Assembly: GCA_016872725.1 (NCBI GenBank)
Contig: VGZC01000020.1
Location: 1 to 64,000 of the forward strand
Reading direction: 5' to 3'
DNA: 64,000 bases
From: Planctomycetota bacterium
GTDB taxonomy: Bacteria > Planctomycetota > Planctomycetia > Pirellulales > Pirellulaceae
The translations under genes and the position numbers were made by a program. Within the stretch, counting starts at the first letter, position 1, and every line of letters begins with the position of its first letter. Positions 3,488 through 39,954 of the stretch are shown here, one piece after another. The notes beneath the pieces were generated by a model. That model saw only the letters and a program-made list of their open reading frames with translations, was not told where the DNA came from and ran no database searches.

Positions 3488-3848
3488 GCCGTCGCCTCCG
3501 CTTGCCTCACCTTGTCCTTGCGTACGCCGTTCGCAATTATTCCACGCGCGGGACGAATGGGCGAGGCCCGGAGGAACGCGGTGACGCGCGGCTGGCCGGC
3601 GCTCCTCGGATGTACCCCCCGACAAATAACGGCAGTCGAGCGCCCGGCGGCCGATGTTCGGCACACCATGGAGTCCAGACGCCCTCGATGTTGTATGCTC
3701 AGGAACGGGACTGGACTCGGGATCGGGATTCGTCGCACAACGGCGGCATGGACCTGAGAATCACCGGAGTGCGGTTCGCTCGACGACGAATGGGTCCAAC
3801 CGGGATTCCGGTCGAGACGCGCCGATAGGTAAGGAGGGACCGGCCGCG

Positions 3849-4766
3849 ATGGCCGTCGAATTCACTCAGATCGAATGGGATCGGGATCTCGACGAGGTTT
3901 GCCGCCGGCTCGTCGAACTCGCGTTGCGCGAGGACCTCGACGCGGGACGGGATTGGACATCCGAGGCGTTGATCGCCGACGACCTTCAAGGCCAGGCGTC
4001 GATGGTCGCGCGATCCGCCGGTGTCGCCGCCGGCCTGCGCGCGCTTGCGGCCATGCTCGAACATGTCGGAGCGGGCGTCGAGTTCCTTCCGGCGATCGAC
4101 GACGGCCGTTCGTTTGAACGCGGCGCGTCGATCGCGACGGTGCGAGGCCGAGTTCGGGGCATTCTCGTTCACGAACGGTGGATGCTCAACACGGTGAGCC
4201 GGCTCTGCGGGATCGCGACCCTCGCCCGCGAGTTCGTTCGGGCCGTCGAAGGGCTTCCCGCGCGGATCTACGACACGCGGAAGACGACGCCGGGTTGGCG
4301 GCGGCTCGAGAAATACGCCGTGCGGTGCGGCGGCGGACGCAACCATCGGACGGGCCTCTTCGACGCGTTCCTCATCAAGGACAACCACCTGGCCTTCGCG
4401 GGCTGGGCCGGGGAACCCGAGCGGGCGATCGAGCGGGTCCGCGCGTTCGCGGCCGATTCGGAGCGGCGTCGGCCGGAATGGCACCGCATGCCGATCGAAA
4501 TCGAAGTGGATTCGCTCGATGCGTTCCGCCGCGTGCTTCCCACCGCGCCCGATCTCGTACTGCTCGACAATATGCCGGTCGAATCGCTCGCCCAAGCCGT
4601 CGCGCTGCGCGATCAACTCGGTTCGCCCATCGAGCTGGAGGCATCGGGCGGCGTCACGATCGCGACCGTCCGCGCGATCGCGCGAACCGGCGTGGACCGG
4701 ATCAGCGTCGGATCCCTCACCCACGGCGCCGTGAGTCTCGACATCGGCCTCGACTGGTCCGCCTGA
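3849..4766 (+). CDS. nadC: Nicotinate-nucleotide pyrophosphorylase (carboxylating), quinolinate phosphoribosyltransferase
   Basis: NadC converts quinolinate and PRPP to nicotinate mononucleotide, CO2 and pyrophosphate, the committed step of de novo NAD synthesis. The 305-residue protein has the family signatures: Asp-Thr-Arg-Lys-Thr-Thr-Pro-Gly at about 141-148, Gly-Gly-Gly-Arg-Asn-His-Arg near 160-166, and Leu-Ile-Lys-Asp-Asn-His near 175. The C-terminal barrel contains Leu-Leu-Asp-Asn-Met and Glu-Ala-Ser-Gly-Gly-Val. The start ATG 3849 follows TAAGGAGGG (about 8 bases spacing). No nadA or nadB is in the window. It is transcribed divergently from comEA/uvrB, so the 3488-3848 gap should hold both promoters. 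Confidence 0.96.
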   Translation: MAVEFTQIEWDRDLDEVCRRLVELALREDLDAGRDWTSEALIADDLQGQASMVARSAGVAAGLRALAAMLEHVGAGVEFLPAIDDGRSFERGASIATVRGRVRGILVHERWMLNTVSRLCGIATLAREFVRAVEGLPARIYDTRKTTPGWRRLEKYAVRCGGGRNHRTGLFDAFLIKDNHLAFAGWAGEPERAIERVRAFAADSERRRPEWHRMPIEIEVDSLDAFRRVLPTAPDLVLLDNMPVESLAQAVALRDQLGSPIELEASGGVTIATVRAIARTGVDRISVGSLTHGAVSLDIGLDWSA

Positions 4767-6444: not shown

Positions 6445-8624
6445 CGCGATTCCGCGCCCGCGATCGACGCCGAGGCGTCGCCTTGCTCATCGTGCTCGGA
6501 ATTCTCACGATGGCGCTCGGCGTCTGTTACGCGATGCTGCGCGGCCAGTCCACGTCGTCGATGATCGAGCGGAATCAAGGGCGGCTCGATGACGCCCGGT
6601 CGGCCGCATTGACGGGCGTGAGCATCGCCCTCGCGAAGATGCACACGACGGCATGGAGCGGAGTCGGCTCGTCGCTGACGGGCAATCTGAACACGGGCCT
6701 TTCCTATCGAGCGACGTTCGCGGCGGGGGACGCGAGCCTCGATTCCGCGGACGCCGACTACGCCGACCTTCCCTACCGCGTGACCGTCCAGTCGGTCGGC
6801 ACGGCCGTCGATCCGTCGAATCCGAGCATCGCCTCGACGCACGCCGTCGATGTCGTCGTCCAACTCGTGCCGCGCGCCATGGCCGCGCTGCCCGCGAAAT
6901 GGAGCACGATCCAAAACCACACGGTCTTTCAGTGGGGCACCGATCCGTTCACGTTCGAAATGCCCGCGCGGATCGAAGGGGACGTCCACGCGCAAGGCGC
7001 CTTCGCGCTCGCGCCGTCGTACCCGACACAGGACTCCCGACCGTTCAAAGGCCACATCGACGAAATCGCCGTCTACAACAAGGCGCTCACCGACTCCGAG
7101 ATCCTGGCAATCCAATCGGCCGCCGCCACGCCACCCCAAAACGCGCAAGACGTCGTCGCGGGCTACGGGCCGATCGCGTATTGGCGCTGCGACGAAGCCG
7201 CCGGCGCGGCCACCGCCGCGGACAGCGCGGGAGCGAACCCGGGCGCCTATGTCGGAGCCAAGTCGGGTGACGCCAACAAGCCGTTTTGGGGCGCGGGTTC
7301 CTCAGCGCAATTCGACGGTTTCAACGATCATATTCGGTGCGGGCGGCCCGATGTCGCCACGTCGGCGTTCACCGTTCTCTGCTGGTTCCGCGCCGATTCG
7401 TTTCCGTCCGGCGACCAGCACCTCGTGTGCAAGGCGCTCGGCCCGAGCGACGCCGACCAGTACTGGATGCTCGGCACGACGATCAAATCGGGCGCCCGGC
7501 GGCTCAAGTTCGGCCTTCGAACATCCCATGGATGGAAGGACGTGACCGCCAATTCCGGCGATTTATTCGCCGGAGTCTGGACGTTCGCGGCCGCCACGTA
7601 CGACGGATCGAAGTTGCGGGTCTACAAGGACGGGACTATGGAGTCCTTGATCGGACATTCGGGGACGATCACGGCGAATGCGAACGCGTTCCTTTGTATC
7701 GGCGACACGCCGCCGGGGAGCCCGAGAACCCAGTTGCTGCGCGACGAGCGGGCTATGCAACTGGCCCGTGAAACCGACATGCGTCCGGTGACCGGAACCT
7801 GGCGGGCGCCCGTCGGCGCGATCGACGCGGAAACGCTCACGTTCCTGCGGGATGATCTCGGCGCGGGCAGCGCGACGATCTCCGCCGACACGTCCGCGCC
7901 GGTCACGATTCCCGGCGGAGTGGGCTCGTACCAGTTGTTTTCGGGCGGGCCGATCTACAAGATTCCCGATCCGGGCGGTTCGATCGAAAACGCCACGCTC
8001 GCCGCCGACCCCTCCACGAATCCGCTCGGGTTTCGCCGGCATCAAGGCAACGTCGACATCAAGGACTCCGTCACCGGGACCGGGACCTTGTTCCTGGAAT
8101 CACCGGGCGATCTGGGATTCAAAGGTACGGGGACGAACTGGAGTTCGGTGTTGTTGCCCGCGATCGACGGCGAATCGAACCGAAGACGGTACCCGGCCTT
8201 TATCGTCGCGGGCTCGGTGGTCGTCGAGAAGTCTTCGGTCGCCGCGCAGGTTTCCGGGGCGGTCGTCGCGGGAAACAGGTTTGAAGCGAAGGACCGCACG
8301 GACGTGTCGCCGGGAATCACGATCAACGGCCGCGTGGTCAGCGCTTCGTTTCAATTCGGCAAACGAAAGGGGACGCCGACGAACGCCAACGACTGGCGTT
8401 CCTATGCGCAGTCGTTCCTGCTGCAAACCACCCTGCCGTATTTTCCGGGTTGGCTCGCATCGAATCCGGATATCGATGTCGCGCCGCTTTGGACGATCCG
8501 CCCGGACCCCGCCGGGCATGTCGACCAATGGCCGGACCTGACGCAACCGGTCTTTGTTCCGAGGACCGGGGACGGCGGTCTGCGATGGCGCGTGGTATCC
8601 TGGCGGGAGGGAACGGGGCCGTGA
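6441..8624 (+). CDS. Large PilX/GspK-like pseudopilin with LamG-like (concanavalin A-like) region
   Basis: A 727-residue protein. The N-terminus (Arg-Arg-Gly then Val-Ala-Leu-Leu-Ile-Val-Leu-Gly-Ile-Leu) is a prepilin-type segment lacking Glu at +5, as in GspK/PilX minor pseudopilins that sit at the pilus tip. Residues about 200-425 resemble a LamG/jelly-roll domain (Ala-Tyr-Trp-Arg, Phe-Asp-Gly-Phe-Asn-Asp-His, Tyr-Asp-Gly-Ser-Lys-Leu-Arg-Val-Tyr-Lys-Asp-Gly). The strand that normally closes the domain (His-Ile-Asp-Glu-Ile-Ala-Val-Tyr-Asn-Lys-Ala-Leu) comes first, at about 204-215, so the domain appears circularly permuted. The C-terminal 300 residues are unrecognised and include beta-rich repeats. 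A tip adhesin or substrate-binding role is inferred. It is coupled to the preceding gene. Confidence 0.8.
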   Translation: MTRFRARDRRRGVALLIVLGILTMALGVCYAMLRGQSTSSMIERNQGRLDDARSAALTGVSIALAKMHTTAWSGVGSSLTGNLNTGLSYRATFAAGDASLDSADADYADLPYRVTVQSVGTAVDPSNPSIASTHAVDVVVQLVPRAMAALPAKWSTIQNHTVFQWGTDPFTFEMPARIEGDVHAQGAFALAPSYPTQDSRPFKGHIDEIAVYNKALTDSEILAIQSAAATPPQNAQDVVAGYGPIAYWRCDEAAGAATAADSAGANPGAYVGAKSGDANKPFWGAGSSAQFDGFNDHIRCGRPDVATSAFTVLCWFRADSFPSGDQHLVCKALGPSDADQYWMLGTTIKSGARRLKFGLRTSHGWKDVTANSGDLFAGVWTFAAATYDGSKLRVYKDGTMESLIGHSGTITANANAFLCIGDTPPGSPRTQLLRDERAMQLARETDMRPVTGTWRAPVGAIDAETLTFLRDDLGAGSATISADTSAPVTIPGGVGSYQLFSGGPIYKIPDPGGSIENATLAADPSTNPLGFRRHQGNVDIKDSVTGTGTLFLESPGDLGFKGTGTNWSSVLLPAIDGESNRRRYPAFIVAGSVVVEKSSVAAQVSGAVVAGNRFEAKDRTDVSPGITINGRVVSASFQFGKRKGTPTNANDWRSYAQSFLLQTTLPYFPGWLASNPDIDVAPLWTIRPDPAGHVDQWPDLTQPVFVPRTGDGGLRWRVVSWREGTGP

Positions 8625-8726
8625 TTCGCTCGGCGAGCCGCGCGGCGAATTCGCGCGACCGGCGCGGCGAGTTGAACGTTCAAAGTGAATGCGGAAAGAC
8701 GAAAGACGACTGGGGAGGACGTACGT

Positions 8727-8957
8727 ATGATCGGTTCAAGCGGGAAGCGAGGCATGTTCCGCGCGGGAGGCATGTTCTGCATCGTTTCACTCATCGGCGC
8801 GGCGTGGTGGCATTCGAGCAGTCCCGCGTGGCAAACCAACCCGCCGGGCCTGCGCAATCCGATCGACCAACGGGAACAGATGATCAAGGAACTCCAGGAA
8901 ATCAAATCCCTGCTCAAGGAACAGAACGCGCTCCTGCGAGCGCGCGACAAGCCATGA
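8727..8957 (+). CDS. Small membrane-anchored coiled-coil protein
   Basis: A 76-residue protein with one hydrophobic segment (about residues 12-26, including Ile-Val-Ser-Leu-Ile-Gly-Ala-Ala). It ends in a charged heptad-like helix (Gln-Met-Ile-Lys-Glu-Leu-Gln-Glu-Ile-Lys-Ser-Leu-Leu-Lys-Glu-Gln) likely to form a coiled coil outside the membrane. ATG 8727 has GGGGAGGA eight bases upstream. Its stop overlaps the ATG of the next pseudopilin gene (8954-8957), placing it firmly in the pilus operon. No family recognised; a structural or assembly role in the pilus machine is inferred from position. Confidence 0.75.
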   Translation: MIGSSGKRGMFRAGGMFCIVSLIGAAWWHSSSPAWQTNPPGLRNPIDQREQMIKELQEIKSLLKEQNALLRARDKP

Positions 8958-13162: not shown

Positions 13163-15493
13163 ATGTACGGACGATCCATGCAGACCCTATTCCGCATCGT
13201 CATGTTGGGAGGCTTCGCGGCGGCGGGCGTCGGACTCGCCGTATCGTTCGGCCTCCGAGCGGATCGGCCGGAGGCACCGTCGCGGGAGCCGGGAACGGCG
13301 GGCGCGGGAACGGCGGGCGAGTCGGCGGGGGAACGGGAGACCGCCGCTCCGAACGCGCCGCGCGGCGCGGCGCGACGTGCGGCGTCCGAGGACGCGGAAA
13401 ACGAGTCGATCGAATACGCCGGTCCGCGGGAACCGGCGCCCGTTCCCGCCAAATGGAACCCGGCGATCGCCGATCCCGGCGGCGATCCGGTCGGCGAACT
13501 GCTCAAACGGATCGGGGAAAAGGGCGGTCTGTTCGAGGCCGCGCGGGACGCGCTCACCGGCGGCGATCGCGGAACGGACGAGGCGGGGGCGAGCGATCGG
13601 CTTCCCGAACGATCGGGTGGCCGCTCTCCGTCCGAGCCGCCGCTCGAACCCGATCGGGGCGATCCGCGGCCACCGCCGCCGTCGGCGGCCGAGAGCCCCC
13701 TGCCCTCCCCCGCTTCGCCGGCCCCCGCGACGATCGTTCCGGGCGCCGGCGATCGATTCTCGATCACCGTGCGCCAGGCGCCCATCGGTGAAGTGCTCGA
13801 GATGATCGGGCAGCAATCGGGGTTGAGCATCATCGCGAGCCCGACGACGGCCGGTTCGATCAGCGCCACGTTGAACGACGTCGACGCGCAAACGGCGATC
13901 GAGATCCTGGTGCGGAACGCGGGGCTCGCGTTCCAGCGCGAGGGCAACGTCGTCTACGTCGGTTCGGCGCAGGAACTCGAGAACGCGTCGATCTCGCGGC
14001 AGCCTCTTGCGGTCCGCGTCTACCGCCCGAACTATGTCGCATCGTCCGAACTGCAGAAGCTCATCACGCCCCTCCTGACCCAAAGTGTTGGCCAGGCGAC
14101 GGTCGGTGTCGGCCAGATCGCCGTGAGTACCGAGGCGCAACGATCGATCGCGCCCAGCAACGAGGAAACGGGGGGCGACGACTTCGCGGGCAACGAGATC
14201 CTGCTCGTCCGCGATTACGAATCGGTCCTGCATTACATCGATCAGGTCGTTCATGAAGTCGATCAGAAGCCTCGGCAAGTCGCGCTCGAAGCGATGATCC
14301 TGAGCGTGGGACTCAGCGACGAGAATTCGCGGGGGATCAACCTCGAAGGCCTTCTCAATCGGGACGACGCGCGCCTGATCAGCGGCGTCCCGATGAACGA
14401 CCTCGCGGCGATCAACGTGACCGACAGCGGCCTCAAGTTCGCATTCCTCGACAGCAGCGTCTCGTCGTTCGTCGCGGCGCTCGAGACGATCGGCGACACG
14501 AACGTGATCGCGTCGCCCCGATTGACGTGCCTCAACAAGCAGCGGGCGGAGATCCTGATCGGCGCCCAGCTCGGTTATGTCACCACGTCGGTCACCGAAA
14601 CATCGGCGACGCAGTCGGTATCGTTCCTCGAAGTCGGAACCCAACTCCGGTTCCGCCCGTACATTTCCAGCGACGGGATGGTACGTCTCGAAGTCCACCC
14701 CGAGCTTTCGACGGGCAACGTGCGCATCGAACAGGGGATGACGATTCCCGACAAGGAAGTCACGCAGGTCACGACGAACATCATGTGTCCCGATGGCCGC
14801 ACGATCATCATCGGCGGCCTCATTCGCGAGGACCTGAGCACCACGGGGACGCAGATCCCGTTGCTCGGCAGCCTGCCGTACGTCGGCGCCTTGTTCCGGC
14901 AGAAGACCGAGTCGACCGGACGGCGCGAGATCATCATCCTGATCACGCCCCGGATCGTGCGGGACGAATGGGAGGCGATCGAGGGGAGCCGAACGCGGTT
15001 CGACTTCTTGAAGCGGCAAGAGAATTACGCCGACAAGATGTCGTTCATCGGGAAGCGTCATTACGGGCTTCGCTACATTCGGCTGGCCCGCGCCGCGTGG
15101 AACGCGGGCGACGCGCCCGCGGCGCTGCGCTACGTCAATCTCGCGCTGCACTTCGATCCGCAGAACCTCGAAGCCACCACGCTCCACGAGACGATCATCC
15201 GGACATTGCCGCCCGAGGCCGACCATATCGGAAACCACCTGTTGCCCGGACTGGCTCCGTTCGGGACACCCGCGCGGGATCACTCGGCGCAAGGCGTCGA
15301 ATGGCGATCGACGATGCCCGCCGAGGAACCGCCGGTTGACGGTGTCGACTATTGGGAGCCGGGTCCGCGGCATACGCTGGCGCCGTACGGCGCCGGGTCC
15401 TCGGATTCCGTTCCGGCGCCGGCCGGCCCGTTACATCGTCCGATCGATCCGGTGCGACCCGCGCCGGAACCGATCGTTGGGCCGGCGCGATGA
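13163..15493 (+). CDS. Secretin (PilQ/GspD family) with C-terminal TPR-like region
   Basis: A 776-residue outer-membrane secretin. After an N-terminal signal/anchor and a long Pro/Ala/Gly-rich linker come a secretin N-domain (about 195-270; Val-Arg-Gln-Ala-Pro-Ile-Gly-Glu-Val-Leu) and the C-terminal secretin domain (about 370-600). The latter has the Glu-Val-Gly-Thr-Gln-Leu-Arg-Phe segment and the signature Asp-Gly-Arg-Thr-Ile-Ile-Ile-Gly-Gly-Leu-Ile, then Ile-Pro-Leu-Leu-Gly-Ser-Leu-Pro-Tyr-Val-Gly. Beyond the secretin domain lies an unusual ~170-residue extension with one TPR-like unit (Ala-Ala-Leu-Arg-Tyr-Val-Asn-Leu-Ala-Leu-His-Phe-Asp-Pro) and a Pro-rich end. It extrudes pili or substrates through the outer membrane. 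The exact start is uncertain (ATG 13163 or 13178). Confidence 0.93.
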   Translation: MYGRSMQTLFRIVMLGGFAAAGVGLAVSFGLRADRPEAPSREPGTAGAGTAGESAGERETAAPNAPRGAARRAASEDAENESIEYAGPREPAPVPAKWNPAIADPGGDPVGELLKRIGEKGGLFEAARDALTGGDRGTDEAGASDRLPERSGGRSPSEPPLEPDRGDPRPPPPSAAESPLPSPASPAPATIVPGAGDRFSITVRQAPIGEVLEMIGQQSGLSIIASPTTAGSISATLNDVDAQTAIEILVRNAGLAFQREGNVVYVGSAQELENASISRQPLAVRVYRPNYVASSELQKLITPLLTQSVGQATVGVGQIAVSTEAQRSIAPSNEETGGDDFAGNEILLVRDYESVLHYIDQVVHEVDQKPRQVALEAMILSVGLSDENSRGINLEGLLNRDDARLISGVPMNDLAAINVTDSGLKFAFLDSSVSSFVAALETIGDTNVIASPRLTCLNKQRAEILIGAQLGYVTTSVTETSATQSVSFLEVGTQLRFRPYISSDGMVRLEVHPELSTGNVRIEQGMTIPDKEVTQVTTNIMCPDGRTIIIGGLIREDLSTTGTQIPLLGSLPYVGALFRQKTESTGRREIIILITPRIVRDEWEAIEGSRTRFDFLKRQENYADKMSFIGKRHYGLRYIRLARAAWNAGDAPAALRYVNLALHFDPQNLEATTLHETIIRTLPPEADHIGNHLLPGLAPFGTPARDHSAQGVEWRSTMPAEEPPVDGVDYWEPGPRHTLAPYGAGSSDSVPAPAGPLHRPIDPVRPAPEPIVGPAR

Positions 15494-33380: not shown

Positions 33381-33667
33381 GCCGTAAACGTCCGGCGGAT
33401 TGCGTTGGTGGGGGTGTCGGGCGGGGCGGGAGCGGCGGCCTGCGGATGTCGGCGAACGGCACGGTGCCGGGGGACGGGGGCGGTGCCGTTGAATCGGGGC
33501 GAATGGGTGGTCCGGTCAGGCGACGCCCGTCGTCGCCCTTCGCTCCGATTCGGGAAGACGCGACTCTCCGAGCCGCGTCTTTCCGAAGCTGCCCAGCGCT
33601 CGGCGCGCCGTCGGCGGCTATCGGAAGCAGCTAAAGAAAGAAGTCGTGTCTTGATGACTTCCAGCGG

Positions 33668-34023
33668 TCAGCCGCGAATGCGAATAGTCCGCTCGTTGAC
33701 GATCCACAGCTTCCCAATCAGCTCCTCGGCGTCCAGCTTCAAGAGCAGTCGCCCAAGGACTTCCAGGACGCGCGGTTTATCCCGCCTCGCCAACCGCATC
33801 ACGATGATCCCGCAATAGTCCTCGGGTGGATACGCGCGGATGTCGGCGAAGTCCAGATCGAGCGTGAGCAAGGCTCGGCCTTCGCGCTGGCAGACCGCGG
33901 GATACCGGTGTCGGCCGAACCCACGAGTTGCTGATCATGCACCGACAGTGCGTCGTGCCCCGCCTGCCGCAACAACGCGCTGGCTTCCGCCGGGAGGTTT
34001 TCATCGACCTTGAGCAGCGCCAT
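33668..34023 (-). pseudogene. DUF5615 PIN-like toxin gene with frameshift
   Basis: The first part starting at ATG 34023 (Leu-Leu-Lys-Val-Asp-Glu-Asn-Leu-Pro-Ala-Glu-Ala, Ala-Gly-His-Asp-Ala-Leu-Ser-Val) and the second part in another frame (Leu-Thr-Leu-Asp-Leu-Asp-Phe-Ala-Asp-Ile-Arg, Tyr-Cys-Gly-Ile-Ile-Val-Met-Arg-Leu) together form a complete DUF5615/PIN-like protein of about 118 residues. A single missing base near 33895-33903 separates them. Acidic residues expected for the PIN-like site are retained in both halves. The ATG overlaps the stop of the DUF433 gene upstream (TGATG). As read, the product would be truncated and inactive. Confidence 0.78.
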
Positions 34024-34262
34024 CAGGAGGTCCCAGCGGAAGTCAGGTCGACGGTGCGATCGCGGGCCAGGTCGGCCGCGTACGCTATCGCCGCCTGCAC
34101 GTCTTCGCGCGTCAGCGGGGGATAACTGGCCAACAGTTCGTCCAATTCAAGCCCCGCCGCCAGATTGTCCAGCACCACGGAGACCATGATCCGCGTGCCC
34201 TTGATGCAGGCACTGCCGTGGCAGACGGACGGATTGACGGTGACGTGTTCTCGCCAGTTCGT
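34023..34262 (-). CDS. DUF433-family antitoxin, with ACG in the start position
   Basis: A 79-residue DUF433 protein: Asn-Pro-Ser-Val-Cys-His-Gly-Ser-Ala-Cys-Ile-Lys-Gly-Thr-Arg-Ile, Val-Leu-Asp-Asn-Leu-Ala-Ala-Gly-Leu, Leu-Leu-Ala-Ser-Tyr-Pro-Pro-Leu-Thr. The family has an HTH fold and pairs with DUF5615 toxins. Relatives typically begin Met-Asn-Trp-Arg-Glu-His; here that codon is ACG (34262-34260), nine bases after AAGGAG, so the original ATG appears mutated. Upstream the frame stays open to 34436 but without family-like sequence. Translation may be weak or lost. It is coupled to the frameshifted toxin gene. Confidence 0.68.
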   Translation of the reverse strand, partial: TNWREHVTVNPSVCHGSACIKGTRIMVSVVLDNLAAGLELDELLASYPPLTREDVQAAIAYAADLARDRTVDLTSAGTS

Positions 34263-34433
34263 TTCCAGGTTCTCCTTCGGTTGCCATTTTACTCGGGTTG
34301 CGGCTCGGCGTCGTCGCCCTTGGCGGACTCGCCGTCGGGAGGTGGGGGCGCCGAAGTGTCTTGCGCCCCCGCTTGCTCCTGACTCCAGCCCTGTGTAGGT
34401 GACTAAGTCGGGATCGCCTTTTCGGATACGATC

Positions 34434-34487
34434 CAAGACAGGACACCCGGATTCGCTTTGGGTTCCGAACCTGGGTGTCCTGTCTTG
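34434..34487. repeat. Palindromic intergenic element (15-bp perfect inverted repeat)
   Basis: CAAGACAGGACACCC (34434-34448) and GGGTGTCCTGTCTTG (34473-34487) are perfect inverted repeats, with imperfect pairing continuing inward (GGATTCG / TTCCGAACCT). GTCTTGATT is then repeated at 34482-34490 and 34491-34499. It lies 27 bases past the HlyD-type gene stop and may terminate that transcript. There is no T-run on the minus strand. Confidence 0.75.
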
Positions 34488-34514
34488 ATTGTCTTGATTA
34501 TTGCGTGCGATTGG

Positions 34515-35780
34515 CTAGTCGAGACTGATGGTCCTGTGGATTTTGTTGAGGAAGACGGCGAGCAGATACCGGCGTTCGGTCACAATGTCCACTTGGCCGG
34601 ACAGGCCAAGCTTCACCGGCGCGCGCAGGTCGCCCCGCGACAACTCGGCCTGTTCGAGCTCGATTCGGACCGTGTAGGCGAACGCGCGCGCCGCGTCGGC
34701 GGGGGCCGAGTCGGGCGCGACGTGGCGCACGATTCCGGTGACCGAGCCGTATCGATGATGGTCGTACGCGTCCAGCCGAATTCGAGCGGACATTCCGGGC
34801 CGGATCGGCCCCATCTCCGAACTGGGAACCGAGGCCTCGAAGCAATAACGGCCCCGTTCGGAGATTTCCAAGACGGGGCGGGCGGGGTCGAGGATGTCGC
34901 CCACGCGAACCTCGCCCGCGCTGACGATCCCATCGATCGGCGCCGGCACCGAGGCTTGGGCCAGATCGAGTTCCAGATTCCTGAGCTCCATCCGCGCCGC
35001 GCCGATCGTGCCCTCCGCGAGCTTCCGCCTCAAGTCCCATTCCTCGAGCTTCGCCTCACTCTCCCGTTCGAACTCGGTTAGCGATTCGGCGGCGATCGCG
35101 GCGCGACCGCCGTCGACCGGAAGGCGGGTCCGTTCGAGTTTCGCGGCCGCCGCCGCGTGGGTCGCTCGCGATCGTTCCAGGTCGGCCGCGGAAGCGGCCA
35201 TCGCCAGGGCGAGCCGCTCGTGGCGCTCGAGATCGTTCGCCGCCAGTTCGAGTTCGGCCTGCGCGATCCGCAAGTCGGATCGTCGCTCCTCGGTCGCGCG
35301 CAGGAAATCGGCCTCGGCCAACCGGTGTTCGGCTTCGAGCCGCGACCGGGTCGCGCGTTGTTGCCGGACGAGCAGGGCTCGCTGCGACTCGAGACTCGCC
35401 AATTCCTCTTCGTCCGATTGAATGGTCCTCCGGCGACTCGCGATTTCGTTTTCCAGTTGTTCGGTATCCAGACGCAACAACTCGTCGCCCTTGTGAACCA
35501 GATCGCCGAGCCGGTGGTTGACGCGCACGACGCGCAGGCACGCCGTACCGGCGCGCGCGCCGCGCGAGACAACCCGGATGGGAACCGGCGGCGTGATCGG
35601 GCGGACACGACCGCCCGCGCGGACGACGAGGTCGGCCTCCGTCAGGCAGGACCACACGACGGCCGCGACGAGCAGTCCCGCGAGCAACAGGAGTGTTCCG
35701 CCCACGACGCGGGGCGGGCGGGATCGGACGAGGATCGCGAATTCGCGGCCGTCGCGCACGTCGGTGATTTCCGTGGTCAT
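34515..35780 (-). CDS. HlyD-family membrane fusion protein of a peptide exporter
   Basis: A 421-residue periplasmic adaptor: cytoplasmic N-terminus, one membrane helix (about 24-46), first half of a lipoyl/barrel domain (about 70-105), a long coiled-coil hairpin (about 110-275, Glu/Arg/Ala-rich), second half of the lipoyl domain (Ala-Pro-Ile-Asp-Gly-Ile-Val near 305), and a beta-barrel. It connects an inner-membrane ABC exporter with the outer membrane. ATG 35780 has GGGGAGGG upstream. It is last in the minus-strand operon precursor - ABC transporter - HlyD, 64 bases after the transporter. No TolC homologue is adjacent. Confidence 0.9.
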   Translation of the reverse strand: MTTEITDVRDGREFAILVRSRPPRVVGGTLLLLAGLLVAAVVWSCLTEADLVVRAGGRVRPITPPVPIRVVSRGARAGTACLRVVRVNHRLGDLVHKGDELLRLDTEQLENEIASRRRTIQSDEEELASLESQRALLVRQQRATRSRLEAEHRLAEADFLRATEERRSDLRIAQAELELAANDLERHERLALAMAASAADLERSRATHAAAAAKLERTRLPVDGGRAAIAAESLTEFERESEAKLEEWDLRRKLAEGTIGAARMELRNLELDLAQASVPAPIDGIVSAGEVRVGDILDPARPVLEISERGRYCFEASVPSSEMGPIRPGMSARIRLDAYDHHRYGSVTGIVRHVAPDSAPADAARAFAYTVRIELEQAELSRGDLRAPVKLGLSGQVDIVTERRYLLAVFLNKIHRTISLD

Positions 35781-35844
35781 GGAAGCCCTCCCCTGCGATG
35801 CTTGTCGATCGCGGCAACCTATCCGATGACGGCGCGGCTGGCGT

Positions 35845-38118
35845 TCAGCCTCCGCACACCGCGCCGCCCCGCGAGCGGGCCACCGACGCCGATCCGGCCC
35901 CGTCGAGAACCGTTCGCGGCGCTGGCCGCGTTTCAAATCGTGCGGTGTCCACCGACTCCGTCTCCGATTGCGAACGCCACAAGTCCGCGTAGTATCCGTC
36001 GATCGAGAGTAGTTCCCGATGCGCGCCCTTTTCGGTGACGCGTCCGTCCCGCATCACGTAAATGATGTCCGCGTCGCGAACCGTACTGAGGCGGTGCGCG
36101 ACGAGGACGACCGTCTTGTTCGACAGGATCGATCGGAGATTGCCGAGCACTTCCCGCTCGGTCGCCGTGTCGAGATGGCTTGTCGCTTCGTCGAGGACCA
36201 GCAAGTGCGGATTCCTCAGCAGGGCGCGGGCCAGCGCGAGCCGCTGGCGCTGGCCGCCGGACATCGACGCGCCACGTTCGCCGAGGATCGTGTCGTAACG
36301 CTCGGGCAACGAATCGACGAAGTCGGCGAGACCCGCCAACCGGACAACTTCGACGATATCGGCGAACGACGCGCCCGGCCGCGCCATGGCGATGTTCGCC
36401 CGGATCGACCCCGTGAACAGGAACGGTTCCTGCGACACGACACCGATGCCCGCGCGAAGCGACGCCAGATCGTAGTCGCGATAGTCGCGGCCGTCGATGA
36501 GCAGACGGCCCGATTGGGGCGCATCGAGCGCCGAAAGCAACTTGAGCAACGTGGATTTTCCCGAGCCGCTCTCGCCGACGATCGCGACCGTCTTTCCGGA
36601 GGGGATCGAGAGCGTGAGCTTGTCCAAGGCGGGCGCGCGGCATCCGTATTGGAATGAGACGTCCCGAAGTTCGACGGCGCCTCGGACCCCGCCGAACACG
36701 ATCTTGTCGGCGGCGTGGAGCGGTTCGGTGGGAAGGTCGGTGACTTGCCCGAGCCGGTCGATGGCGATGAGCGCGTCCTGCAACTGGACGTTGATCGACG
36801 CGAGTCGCTGCAGGGGATCGAGCAAATATCCGAGGAGCGAATGGAAGAAGACGAGTTGGCCGACCGAAAGGGCTCCGGCCATCACGCGATGGCCTCCGTA
36901 CCACAGGACGGCGATTCCGGCCAGCCCGGTGATCGCGATCCCCGCGCTGTTCATGCTGTTCCCGAGCGTCTGCATCGCGAATCCGTTTTGGACGACGCGC
37001 ACGAGCCGCGATTCGCCTTCGTCGCACCGCGCCTGCTGGATCCCGAACGCCTTGATCGCCTCGATCCCGGAAACATCCTCGACATAGTGCGACGATAATT
37101 CGGCCGCCGCCTCCATCGCTTCCCTCGATCGACGCCGCACGAACGGATGGTGCGCGGCTGTGCTGAGGATCAACATGAGGACGAAGAGCGTCGCGAGTAG
37201 GGCGAGCCGGCAATCGTAGGCGTAGAGTACGGAGGTCATCGAGACGACGAGCAGTCCGTCCACGACGACCGTGGTCGTCGCGCCGCTGATGGCGCCGCGG
37301 ATCCGCCCGGCGTCGGTGATCCGCGAGAGGATCTCGCCGACGCGCCGCGTCTGGAAGAAGGTCATGGGCAAGTCGAGGATGTGCCGCGAGTAGCCGGCGA
37401 CGAGCGCCAGGTCCACGCGACGACCCACGAACGCCAGCAGATATTGGCGCAGCGCGCCGAACGCCGTCCGAAACAGGACGATCAGCGTCATGCCCACGCC
37501 CAGTGCGTTGAGAAGGCGGACTTCATTGCGGATCAGCACCGAGTCCACCAGGTGCTGGATAAAAAAGGCCGTCGCGACGCCCAGGATGGTCGTCACCAGG
37601 CTCGCCATTGCCGCTTCGGCGATGATCCATGTATGGGCCGAGAGCAGCCCGAGGAATCGACGGACCGGGCGGATCGCCGTTCCCGCTCCGGCCTCGCTCC
37701 TCGCGCACGCGTCGGGCCTCAGCAAGATGAGATAACCCGTCCACGCCGCGAGGAAGTCGGCCTTGGCATGTCGTACGATGCCCCGCGCCGGGTCCGCGAC
37801 GACGACTCGATGACGGCCCACGCCGTGCACCACGACGAAATGGCCGAGCCCTTCGCGGTTTCGAATGTGGGCGATCGCCGGCTTGGGCAGTTCGACAAGC
37901 GATCGTTCGGTCGCATGGACCGCTTTGGCATCGAACCCGAGCTTTCGAGCGGCCTGGACGAGACCCAAGAGGTTCGTCCCGACACGATCGGTTCCCGACA
38001 GATCCCGCAGATGCTGCAATCCTACCGGCCTGCGATAATGAACGGCGACCGTGGCGAGGGCCGCGGCCCCGCGATCGCTCGCATCGTTCTGTCGCACGAC
38101 CGCGTGTCGATGGAACAT
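35845..38118 (-). CDS. Peptidase-domain ABC exporter (bacteriocin/GG-peptide type) with C39 Cys replaced by Arg
   Basis: A 757-residue half-transporter. Residues 1-135 are a C39 peptidase-like domain: Gln10, His93 (Gly-His-Phe-Val-Val-Val) and Asp109 (Ala-Asp-Pro) are in place. The catalytic Cys position in Gln-x-Asp-x-x-Asp-Cys-Gly reads Arg16 (codon CGC, one transition from TGC). Six membrane helices (about 155-440) and an ATPase domain follow: Walker A Gly-Glu-Ser-Gly-Ser-Gly-Lys-Ser near 517, signature Met-Ser-Gly-Gly-Gln-Arg-Gln, Walker B Leu-Leu-Val-Leu-Asp-Glu-Ala near 640. ATG 38118 starts 22 bases after the precursor stop; TTG 38139 would add seven residues. It should export the GG-leader peptide, but cleavage by this domain is not expected. 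Confidence 0.92.
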   Translation of the reverse strand: MFHRHAVVRQNDASDRGAAALATVAVHYRRPVGLQHLRDLSGTDRVGTNLLGLVQAARKLGFDAKAVHATERSLVELPKPAIAHIRNREGLGHFVVVHGVGRHRVVVADPARGIVRHAKADFLAAWTGYLILLRPDACARSEAGAGTAIRPVRRFLGLLSAHTWIIAEAAMASLVTTILGVATAFFIQHLVDSVLIRNEVRLLNALGVGMTLIVLFRTAFGALRQYLLAFVGRRVDLALVAGYSRHILDLPMTFFQTRRVGEILSRITDAGRIRGAISGATTTVVVDGLLVVSMTSVLYAYDCRLALLATLFVLMLILSTAAHHPFVRRRSREAMEAAAELSSHYVEDVSGIEAIKAFGIQQARCDEGESRLVRVVQNGFAMQTLGNSMNSAGIAITGLAGIAVLWYGGHRVMAGALSVGQLVFFHSLLGYLLDPLQRLASINVQLQDALIAIDRLGQVTDLPTEPLHAADKIVFGGVRGAVELRDVSFQYGCRAPALDKLTLSIPSGKTVAIVGESGSGKSTLLKLLSALDAPQSGRLLIDGRDYRDYDLASLRAGIGVVSQEPFLFTGSIRANIAMARPGASFADIVEVVRLAGLADFVDSLPERYDTILGERGASMSGGQRQRLALARALLRNPHLLVLDEATSHLDTATEREVLGNLRSILSNKTVVLVAHRLSTVRDADIIYVMRDGRVTEKGAHRELLSIDGYYADLWRSQSETESVDTARFETRPAPRTVLDGAGSASVARSRGGAVCGG

Positions 38119-38139
38119 GGCTCGGCCCCGCTCACACAA

Positions 38140-38328
38140 TCACGGATCGTTCTTCTTTTTCTTCGGAACCGAATGCCCACCACCCTCGTAGGTGAATCCG
38201 TCATGCGAGTTGTATCCCACCGCTCCGCCCGTGGCCCCGCCGACCATGTGGTCCAAGAGCCACTCGAGCCACGTCCCGCCTTGGATCTCCATCGCTTCGT
38301 TCGCACTGACTTCCCGTACGTCGTTCAT
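38140..38328 (-). CDS. Putative double-glycine leader peptide (bacteriocin-like precursor)
   Basis: A 62-residue peptide. Leader residues 1-18 end Val-Ser-Ala-Asn-Glu-Ala-Met-Glu-Ile-Gln-Gly-Gly, matching the GG-leader pattern with Ser at -11, Glu at -8, Ile at -4 and Gly-Gly at -2/-1. The 44-residue core starts Thr-Trp-Leu-Glu-Trp-Leu-Leu-Asp-His and contains Val-Gly-Gly-Ala-Thr-Gly-Gly-Ala-Val, a small-residue segment like GxxxG helix-packing motifs of pore-forming bacteriocins. It ends in a Lys-rich tail. AAGAAAGGG precedes ATG 38328. It is directly upstream of a peptidase-domain ABC exporter and HlyD protein, which strongly supports export. No modification enzyme or immunity gene is recognised. 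Confidence 0.8.
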   Translation of the reverse strand: MNDVREVSANEAMEIQGGTWLEWLLDHMVGGATGGAVGYNSHDGFTYEGGGHSVPKKKKNDP

Positions 38329-38560
38329 CGAATCACCCTTTCTTCACCGGCCCCGCGAGTTGTTGAAGAGTCGGGCGTCGGGGACGGATAACACGCTCGG
38401 CTCTACAAACGAAACGCACCGGGCAGGGCGAAGTGTTACAAAGTCCCGCCAGGAATCGAGCGAAACGCGGATAGCCGACTTCAAGACACGTCGCTTTGCC
38501 GCCGAGGTCCGTCTGGGGCACTCAATTCCCCGTCGAATCGAACGTCATGCTGGTTACAAG
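38329..38560. other. Region upstream of the peptide-export operon
   Basis: About 230 bp without a supported gene; it should contain the promoter of the minus-strand operon. A 62-residue minus-strand frame (38333-38521) lacks a ribosome-binding site and family resemblance. On the right it passes into the rearranged dispersed element. Confidence 0.5.
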
Positions 38561-38856
38561 CACGAGCACGACGATTCGAATTCCAATCGCCGAACAGCGC
38601 GGTGAACCCGAGCGGCAGATCGGGCGGTCTCTGAAATCAGACGTTCTTGGCCGCCGCCGGGGGGTACCGCTGGTCGATCGGCGATATTTTCGAGGAGGGC
38701 CTTCGTTCTCGTTCTCGTTCTCGTGCTCGTTCTCGTGCTCGTTCTCGAATGGAGAGCGGGCGATGACGGAACCTGTTTTCGATCACGACAAGCGGGATGT
38801 CTATCGGCTCTCGATCGCATACGTGGCGGAATCAACCACGAACGACACGAGTCCTA
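38561..38856 (+). mobile_element. Second, rearranged copy of the GxxExxR / four-helix-bundle element
   Basis: 38564-38640 matches the minus-strand reading of the GxxExxR remnant at 470-545 (shared Ile-Ala-Glu-Gln-Arg-Gly-Glu). 38703-38747 is the TTCTCG hexamer tract, and 38748-38834 matches the start of the four-helix-bundle gene (895-985 inverted). The gene order is the reverse of the first copy, and both coding pieces are broken. The right end reads AACCACGAACGACACGAG, the same style of sequence as the cassette ends, and abuts the stop of the kinase gene at 38857. Confidence 0.65.
38763..38834 (+). pseudogene. Truncated four-helix-bundle gene
   Basis: From ATG 38763 the first 24 codons (Met-Thr-Glu-Pro-Val-Phe-Asp-His-Asp-Lys-Arg-Asp-Val-Tyr-Arg-Leu-Ser-Ile-Ala-Tyr) are nearly identical to the intact protein at 502-969. 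The similarity then stops abruptly after Ala-Glu-Ser. Confidence 0.75.
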
Positions 38857-39954
38857 TCACCGCTGCACCCTCGCCGACCCTCCCCGCGCGAGGCCTTCGA
38901 CTTCGGCGAGTTTCGCCATCGAGACGTCGCCGGGGAATGTCGTGATCAGCGCTCCGTGCGCCCAGCCGAGCCGCAAGGCCTCGTCGGCCGACCGGCCCGC
39001 CTGGAGTCCGTAGATGAGTCCCGCCGCGAATCCATCTCCGCCGCCGATCCGGTCGAGCACATCGAGTTCGCACGTGGGGCTGACGTACCGGCGGCCGTTG
39101 AGCCAGAGCACGGCGGCCCAGTCGTGCCGATTGGTCGAATGCACGTCGCGCAGCGTCGTCGCGACGAGTCGGATGTTCGGGAATTTTTTCCGGGCCCCTT
39201 CGATCATCGTGAAGAACGTGTCTGGGTCCAGTTTCGACTTCGACGCGCATGGGCCGGCCGCGACATCGGGGCCTTGGATCCCCAGCCCCATCTGCAGGTC
39301 CTCCTCGTTGCCGAAGAGCGCGTCGACCCGCGCGACGATGCGCGCGATCCGCTCGCGGCCCTTTTCGAGACCGCCGAGCGCGTTCCACAGTTTCGCTCGG
39401 TAATTCAGATCGAACGACGTGACGGCGCCCGCGGCTTTCGCCGCCTGCATGCCCTCGATGATCAATTCGGACGTCGTGTCCGACAAGGCGGCGAAGATGC
39501 CTCCCGAGTGGAACCAGCGCACGCCCTGACTGAAGATCGCCGACCAATCGAAATCGCCGGGCTTGAGGAGCGCACCCGCTTCGTTCGCGCGATTGTAGAA
39601 GACGACCGGCGCGCGGACGCCTTGACCCCGATCGCTGTAGACCGTCGCGATATTCGGCCCGCGCACTCCGTCGTGGGCGAATCGTCTGTAGTACGCCTTC
39701 ACTCCCATTTCGCGGACGCGGGTTTCGACGAGTTCGCCGATCGCGTAGTCGACCATCGCCGCGGCGACTCCCGTCCGCAAGCCAAAGCACGCGCTGAGAT
39801 TCGCGGCGACGTTGTATTCGCCGCCCGAGACGTGGATATCGAAGGAGCTCGCCTTTCGAAACGGAATGATGCCCGGATCGAGCCGATGCACGAGGGCTCC
39901 GAGCGAGAGGAAGTCGAGTTCGCACGCATCGGTGCGGATCGGGAGTTCGGCCAT
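38857..39954 (-). CDS. kdgK: PfkB-family sugar kinase, probable 2-keto-3-deoxygluconate kinase
   Basis: A 365-residue ribokinase-fold protein: Ser-Gly-Gly-Glu-Tyr-Asn-Val-Ala-Ala-Asn near residue 45 (PfkB signature 1 region), Phe-Asp-Leu-Asn-Tyr-Arg-Ala-Lys-Leu-Trp near 180 and Phe-Gly-Asn-Glu-Glu-Asp-Leu. The catalytic Arg-Ile-Gly-Gly-Gly-Asp-Gly-Phe-Ala-Ala-Gly (Asp base) lies near 305. Asn-Tyr-Arg-x-x-Leu-Trp is typical of KDG kinases, which phosphorylate KDG to KDPG in uronate catabolism. Start ATG 39954. It lies just downstream of a mannonate-type SDR on the same strand, supporting the uronate role. Substrate remains inferred. Confidence 0.85.
   Translation of the reverse strand: MAELPIRTDACELDFLSLGALVHRLDPGIIPFRKASSFDIHVSGGEYNVAANLSACFGLRTGVAAAMVDYAIGELVETRVREMGVKAYYRRFAHDGVRGPNIATVYSDRGQGVRAPVVFYNRANEAGALLKPGDFDWSAIFSQGVRWFHSGGIFAALSDTTSELIIEGMQAAKAAGAVTSFDLNYRAKLWNALGGLEKGRERIARIVARVDALFGNEEDLQMGLGIQGPDVAAGPCASKSKLDPDTFFTMIEGARKKFPNIRLVATTLRDVHSTNRHDWAAVLWLNGRRYVSPTCELDVLDRIGGGDGFAAGLIYGLQAGRSADEALRLGWAHGALITTFPGDVSMAKLAEVEGLARGGSARVQR

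Follow-up and report, generated by a model that had tools for sequence, protein, structure and literature searches.

A double-glycine peptide export cassette in a Planctomycetota genome with arginine at the catalytic cysteine position of its C39 transporter

The window considered here is a stretch of 64,000 nucleotides from the genome of a Planctomycetota bacterium. Its reverse strand carries three genes in the order double-glycine (GG) peptide, C39 peptidase-containing ABC transporter (PCAT), and HlyD-type membrane fusion protein (Table 1). The stop codon of the peptide is 21 bp from the transporter ATG (38118), and the stop codon of the transporter is 64 bp from the HlyD start (35780). A first-pass annotation had described a 62-residue ORF heading a three-gene export operon. 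Its coordinates for the ORF are exact, and Pfam bears out the identity of the next two genes: C39 (PF03412, E = 4.8e-33), ABC membrane, and ABC ATPase domains are found in the transporter, and PF13437 (E = 3.8e-15) is found in the HlyD protein. Among the best 25 of 202 NCBIfam models, none is passed by the transporter at the model's own cut-off. Those that come closest in score are TIGR01846 (540.9 against a cut-off of 725.55 bits) and TIGR01193 (509.7 against 523.85), and the NHLM exporter model TIGR03796 is failed at 484.1 against a curated cut-off of 853.3 bits.

Table 1. Coordinates of the cassette and of the features discussed in the text.
Feature	Coordinates	Strand	Basis or remark
GG-leader precursor gene, 62 aa	38140..38328	-	ORF and codon score; stop codon 38140-38142
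Leader, residues 1-18, ends Gly-Gly	38275..38328	-	read from sequence; 16.4 bits
Ala codon at leader position -7	38293..38295	-	Leu/Met in 14/14 GG leaders at nine orthologous loci
Core, residues 19-62, 44 aa	38143..38274	-	read from sequence; helix 18-30 predicted with low confidence
Second, poorer Gly-Gly site, residues 30-31	38236..38241	-	4.0 bits
Peptidase-containing ABC transporter gene	35845..38118	-	ATG 38118 by alignment with orthologues; open frame to 38139
C39 peptidase domain of the transporter	37711..38103	-	profile search
CGC (Arg) at the catalytic Cys position	38071..38073	-	16 orthologues: TGC in 15, TGT in 1
HlyD-type membrane fusion protein gene	34515..35780	-	start 35780 by alignment with orthologues; open frame to 35936

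An AAGG motif precedes the ATG start of the precursor gene. The codon score of the gene is 23.8 bits under a model trained on the window's own genes and 23.5 bits with a second training set. A score as low or lower is obtained for 31.6% of 228 equal-length pieces of called genes, and a score as high or higher for 2.5% of 569 shadow-frame pieces. Codon use is coding-like in all three operon genes, as would be the case for a gene that is in use or was lost very recently. The GG motif alone is not rare. ORFs with an ATG, Glu at -8, an aliphatic residue at -4, and GG occur at a mean of 0.55 per dinucleotide-shuffled 64-kb window, with at least one in 42 of 100 shuffles, and the real window holds two such ORFs, the second being the end of a called gene. 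It is the placement of this one, 21 bp ahead of a C39 gene and on its strand, for which chance is an unlikely explanation.

Upstream of the operon, about 0.5 kb without a gene-like ORF separates the precursor from a PfkB-type kinase gene, and the single small ORF scanned had no noteworthy Pfam match. The gap also contains runs of a simple repeat, GTTCTC/GTGCTC (38683-38750). On the downstream side are genes of the DUF433 and DUF5615 families (33668-34436, reverse strand), which we take to resemble a toxin-antitoxin pair. The DUF5615 gene is broken or misread, since one frame (33799-34023) matches profile positions 3-45 and another (33668-33871) positions 52-109. A promoter scan of 33600-38900 found none, and six terminator-like sites are present in the same interval, compared with 3.5 (sd 1.8) in shuffles. 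Over the whole window, Rfam gives no match and ARAGORN reports one tRNA (13418-13514), far from the operon. No RTX protein was noticed among the window proteins scanned with Pfam. Sulfatase genes in the window and a DUF1559 gene in a relative from its order fit an origin in the Planctomycetota, such genes being marks of that phylum.

The leader, MNDVREVSANEAMEIQGG, has Val at -12, Ser at -11, Glu at -8, Ile at -4, and a terminal Gly-Gly. The agreement with the GG-leader consensus that had been claimed for it therefore stands, including the hydrophobic residue at -4 and Glu at -8. A feature missed by the first-pass annotation is that position -7 is not hydrophobic in the expected way but is occupied by Ala, where the GG leaders of the orthologous loci have Leu or Met. 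The scans of the orthologous loci took peptides by either a -8 or a -7 rule. Other frames that came up in them were set aside as shadow frames of genes or for lying far from the transporter. The uniformity at -7 is not only an effect of this selection, because 11 of the 14 leaders, with Glu, Asp, or Gln at -8, qualify by that position whatever stands at -7. Despite its Ala, the window leader scores inside the range of the others (8.8-25.3 bits, leave-one-out). Cutting at the second GG, a site that the first-pass annotation also missed, was considered and rejected, given 4.0 bits there and 16.4 bits at the first site. The importance of position -7 has been reported for two other peptidases: in PCAT1 the L(-7)A substitution greatly lowers affinity (PMC6959990, in excerpt), and in LahT a hydrophobic pocket takes up Leu -7, and Lys or Asp at that position strongly impairs cutting (PMC6363468, in excerpt).

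The core is as previously described, with 44 residues, two Trp, a VGGATGGAVG stretch, and a PKKKK tail; it has no Cys. Single-sequence structure prediction of the peptide is of low confidence (mean pLDDT 55.5, pTM 0.22). No convincing homologue of the peptide was found in 98 genomes (its own and 97 others), in a plasmid collection, or at the orthologous loci. Five weak matches in the 97 other genomes (E 0.015-0.095) were rejected as chance, as they lie in longer frames or contain a stop. The nearest peptide at an orthologous locus (G626, E = 0.046 in a small database) aligns over the leader and first core residues only. Searches with Pfam (E up to 1) and NCBIfam (E up to 10) give no family for the peptide, with no match to Bacteriocin_IIc, MccV, or any other bacteriocin model, in agreement with the first reading that no similarity to known bacteriocins is visible. 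Bacteriocin_IIc similarity below the Pfam cut-off is seen in the peptides of G626 and G665, in one of G370, and in one of G710, and not in that of the window.

The source genome (G000) gave no match to LanM (DUF4135), for which 6 of 15 other genomes in the same search match, and none to LanB, for which no control genome matched either; a tblastn search of the window with the LanB proteins from G900 and G1144 gave no match. For LanM and LanB, this extends to the genome the earlier remark that no modification enzyme is visible. A lanthipeptide precursor was also considered for the ORF and rejected, as neither enzyme was found and the core has no Cys. There are 19 OEP matches to outer-membrane channels in the genome, several per gene, and none in the operon. 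Besides the window transporter, the genome has one full C39-ABC gene and one weak partial C39 match. The second C39-ABC protein keeps Cys, His, and Asp and belongs to an NHLM-like set, in which the HlyD protein passes TIGR03794 and two ABC proteins match TIGR03796 and TIGR03797 best, below cut-off. Near this exporter (L094, G000:C2:5000-18000), two ORFs on the reverse strand (1553-2116 and 4166-4651) end in LELVTAGK and a Gly-rich tail. We assume that they resemble Nif11-type precursors, and they are the probable cargo of the NHLM-like exporter.

Seventeen orthologues of the transporter (37-59% identity) have been compared. LanM is encoded near the transporter at five of these loci (G033, G042, G242, G328, and G331; in G079 it is on another contig), and LanB at four (G900, G1144, G768, and G782). 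Five other loci resemble the window in having GG precursors and no gene for either enzyme in the sequence fetched: G032, G370 (three peptides), G626, G710 (two), and G665. They support the first-pass reading of a GG precursor heading a three-gene export operon that has no LanM or LanB. Their cores differ from that of the window's peptide, and the peptides are apparently unmodified. Contig ends truncate the loci of G659 and G692. Absence of the frame or leader from relatives that keep the transporter would have counted against the first-pass reading; the type of leader recurs in them, GG peptides being present at 9 of the 17 loci, but the core has no convincing relative. In G032 and G370 the GG peptides are divergent from the transporter, so the position of the cargo varies.

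The clade comprises loci for lanthipeptides of class II and class I and for GG peptides that are apparently unmodified, and the cassette is therefore of a known kind. In the transporter tree, 4 of 16 inner branches are well supported and most relations among the loci are left open. The clade is sparse, occurring in 4 of 240 other genomes of the family, and it also extends more widely into the phylum; the genome sets sampled at family, order, class, and phylum level share members, and their counts are not summed. Because its peptide cargo is so varied, the clade offers a way to find the secreted peptides of bacteria that have been little studied. Among the open-access literature matches listed, no title deals with GG peptides of Planctomycetota. 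Lanthipeptide and bacteriocin clusters have already been reported from the phylum (PMC10805854, in excerpt), and Planctomycetia contribute less than 1% of the bacteriocin-like proteins retrieved in another survey (PMC7494827, in excerpt).

Several of the loci inspected have features of their own. In G370 (L107), three different GG peptides surround one transporter (3645-3830 and 3956-4135 on the reverse strand, 8667-8903 on the forward strand). In a relative, the class II lanthipeptide locus L092 has two similar Cys-containing long-leader precursors beside LanM (7993-8265 and 8353-8619, both reverse). Related precursors with an LVLNKETVRSL leader lie beside LanB and LanC in L132 (9934-10152, forward) and L112 (9545-9763, forward), and the transporter next to them, which is their exporter, is an orthologue of the window's. 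A wider scan with the transporter gave 54 loci, mostly proteobacterial and mostly of 27-41% identity, which were left out of the comparison. In L069-L090, 22 transporters of the same family (30-35% identity) have no DCG motif in their first 260 residues; from their sequences, they are possibly exporters with C39-like domains.

The second departure missed by the first-pass annotation lies in the peptidase itself. Cys occupies the catalytic position in all 16 orthologues that cover it (G659 being cut off), and the window has Arg. Its motif reads QNDASDRGAA, where the orthologues have DCG followed by Ala or Pro, and the Arg codon is one base from the Cys codon of the orthologues. The oxyanion Gln and the active-site His and Asp are kept, so that Arg, His, and Asp stand in place of the catalytic Cys, His, and Asp. 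Decay of the whole C39 domain was considered and rejected. The share of tree length taken by the terminal branch of the window sequence is 0.097 for the C39 domain and 0.107 for the remainder of the protein (fixed tree, 13 sequences). Of the positions invariant in the other 12 sequences, it departs at 3 of 28 in the C39 domain, 2 of 58 in the membrane domain, and 7 of 87 in the ATPase domain; the maxima for any other single sequence are 3, 8, and 5, respectively. As decay does not extend over the whole domain, the readings left are a very recent loss, continued use of the domain, or a wrong base.

The effect of losing this residue has been reported for several transporters (each source in excerpt). 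In CvaB, mutants of Cys32 lose proteolysis and secretion (PMC3335142). In PteB, a Cys-to-Ala change lowers extracellular EbfG peptides and abolishes biofilm, although the authors leave room for residual function of the mutant (PMC4997328). PCAT1 C21A binds and does not cut (PMC6959990). The first-pass annotation had a 44-residue product being cut out and secreted. As the sequence reads, this part of its proposal is unsupported, because the cognate peptidase is without its nucleophile, and ordinary trimming and release of the peptide by this transporter is improbable.

Our best explanation, to which we give about an even chance, is a recent loss of function that has left a disabled microcin- or bacteriocin-like type I secretion cassette. 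The cassette would consist of a GG precursor, its cognate PCAT, and the HlyD protein, with an outer-membrane channel from another part of the genome presumably completing the path. Ancestrally, as in colicin V or EbfG/PteB, the C39 domain would have bound the leader helix and cut after Gly-Gly, and the core would then have passed out through the ABC transporter, HlyD, and the channel. In the present form, the transporter would bind the leader weakly and without cutting, because the nucleophile is Arg and the leader is without a hydrophobic residue at -7, and no 44-residue product would appear by this route. The operon, the Cys of all 16 orthologues, the Ala at -7, the CvaB, PteB, and PCAT1 mutants, and the channel genes in the genome argue for this explanation. 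On the other side are the constrained state of the C39 domain with its Gln, His, and Asp, the coding-like codon use of the three genes, the ordinary score of the leader, the residual function allowed for the PteB mutant, and a possible base error.

An alternative that we hold to be unlikely is that the peptidase has turned into a docking domain, with the peptide exported whole or cut by another protease, either the intact C39 domain of the second, NHLM-like exporter acting in trans or a protease outside the cell. Loss of the nucleophile alone, in a C39 domain otherwise as constrained as the rest of the protein, is consistent with docking, and the triad kept by the second C39-ABC protein is consistent with cutting in trans. 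PCATs have been reported to fall into kinds with and without the catalytic Cys (PMC10986499), and there are known cases of C39-like domains that lack the Cys and recruit substrate (PMC10986499, PMC6363468, PMC8277102; all in excerpt). Against docking, Ala at -7 should weaken the binding of the leader, as the PCAT1 affinity data indicate (PMC6959990), and the CvaB Cys32 mutants secrete nothing (PMC3335142). The known Cys-less C39-like domains are also tied to large RTX cargo (PMC8277102), a pattern that a short GG peptide beside a Cys-less domain breaks. Finally, a Trp stacks on the His of HlyB (W77-H83; PMC8277102), whereas the stretch IAHIRNREGLG before the His of the window protein, read from its sequence, contains no Trp. 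A natural form halfway between exporters that process their cargo and exporters that do not, in which a PCAT minus its nucleophile serves as a constrained docking domain and exports a short GG peptide with its leader on, is quite improbable; if true, it would break the rule tying peptidase-dead domains to large RTX cargo.

It is similarly doubtful that the Arg codon comes from a mistake in assembly or base calling, with the cassette being an ordinary working GG-peptide exporter. The single base separating it from the orthologues' codon and the intact remainder of the active site would fit an error, as would the frameshift splitting the neighbouring DUF5615 gene, possibly an error too. On the other hand, an error would have to strike exactly this codon, the Ala at -7 of the leader departs independently in the same direction, and most called genes of the window are unbroken. 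That the transporter does not carry the product of the small ORF, the ORF being due to chance or a gene of other function, is very improbable: the ORF has no convincing homologue in the 97 other genomes (best E = 0.015), plasmids, or orthologous loci (best non-self E = 0.046), and GG peptides in G032 and G370 diverge from the transporter, but the codon score, the start motif, the leader score, and the position of the ORF all speak for cargo.

If the Arg is real, the transporter would be a natural analogue of the laboratory mutants that separate leader docking from cutting in peptide exporters, and it could show whether a GG exporter works without cutting. If the cassette is merely disabled, it counsels caution, since a GG leader beside a C39 gene would then be no proof of a secreted product.

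Close counterparts of the cassette include the class I and II LanT exporters listed above (G033, G042, G242, G328, G331, G900, G1144, G768, and G782), which share an orthologous transporter and HlyD. They differ from the window in their modification enzymes, neither LanM nor LanB having been found in the window's genome, and its core has no Cys. HlyB-type exporters with C39-like domains share with the window transporter the absence of the catalytic Cys and an HlyD partner. The window differs in its cargo, a short GG peptide where theirs are large RTX proteins, and in its otherwise intact active site.

The colicin V and class II microcin systems (CvaB, CvaA, TolC) share with the cassette a GG precursor, a C39-ABC transporter, and an HlyD-type protein, and the channel lies outside the window operon. 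The window has Arg where CvaB needs Cys32 and has Ala at -7 of its leader. No immunity gene is recognised at the locus, and the core is unrelated to MccV or other Pfam bacteriocins. In Synechococcus elongatus, likewise a Gram-negative outside the enterobacteria, the small GG proteins EbfG1-4 leave by way of the C39-ABC transporter PteB. PteB has and needs its Cys, and four peptides are found there compared with one here; antimicrobial action of the EbfG peptides is not among what the excerpted report shows (PMC4997328). The nearest solved structures by sequence, both for the whole transporter and for the C39 domain, are those of PCAT1-CtA from Clostridium thermocellum. Natural PCAT1 cuts, CtA has Leu at -7 and -12 (PMC6959990, in excerpt), and the excerpted account describes no HlyD partner for PCAT1, but the PCAT1 crystal chains with Ala or Ser at the Cys position mimic the natural change in the window.
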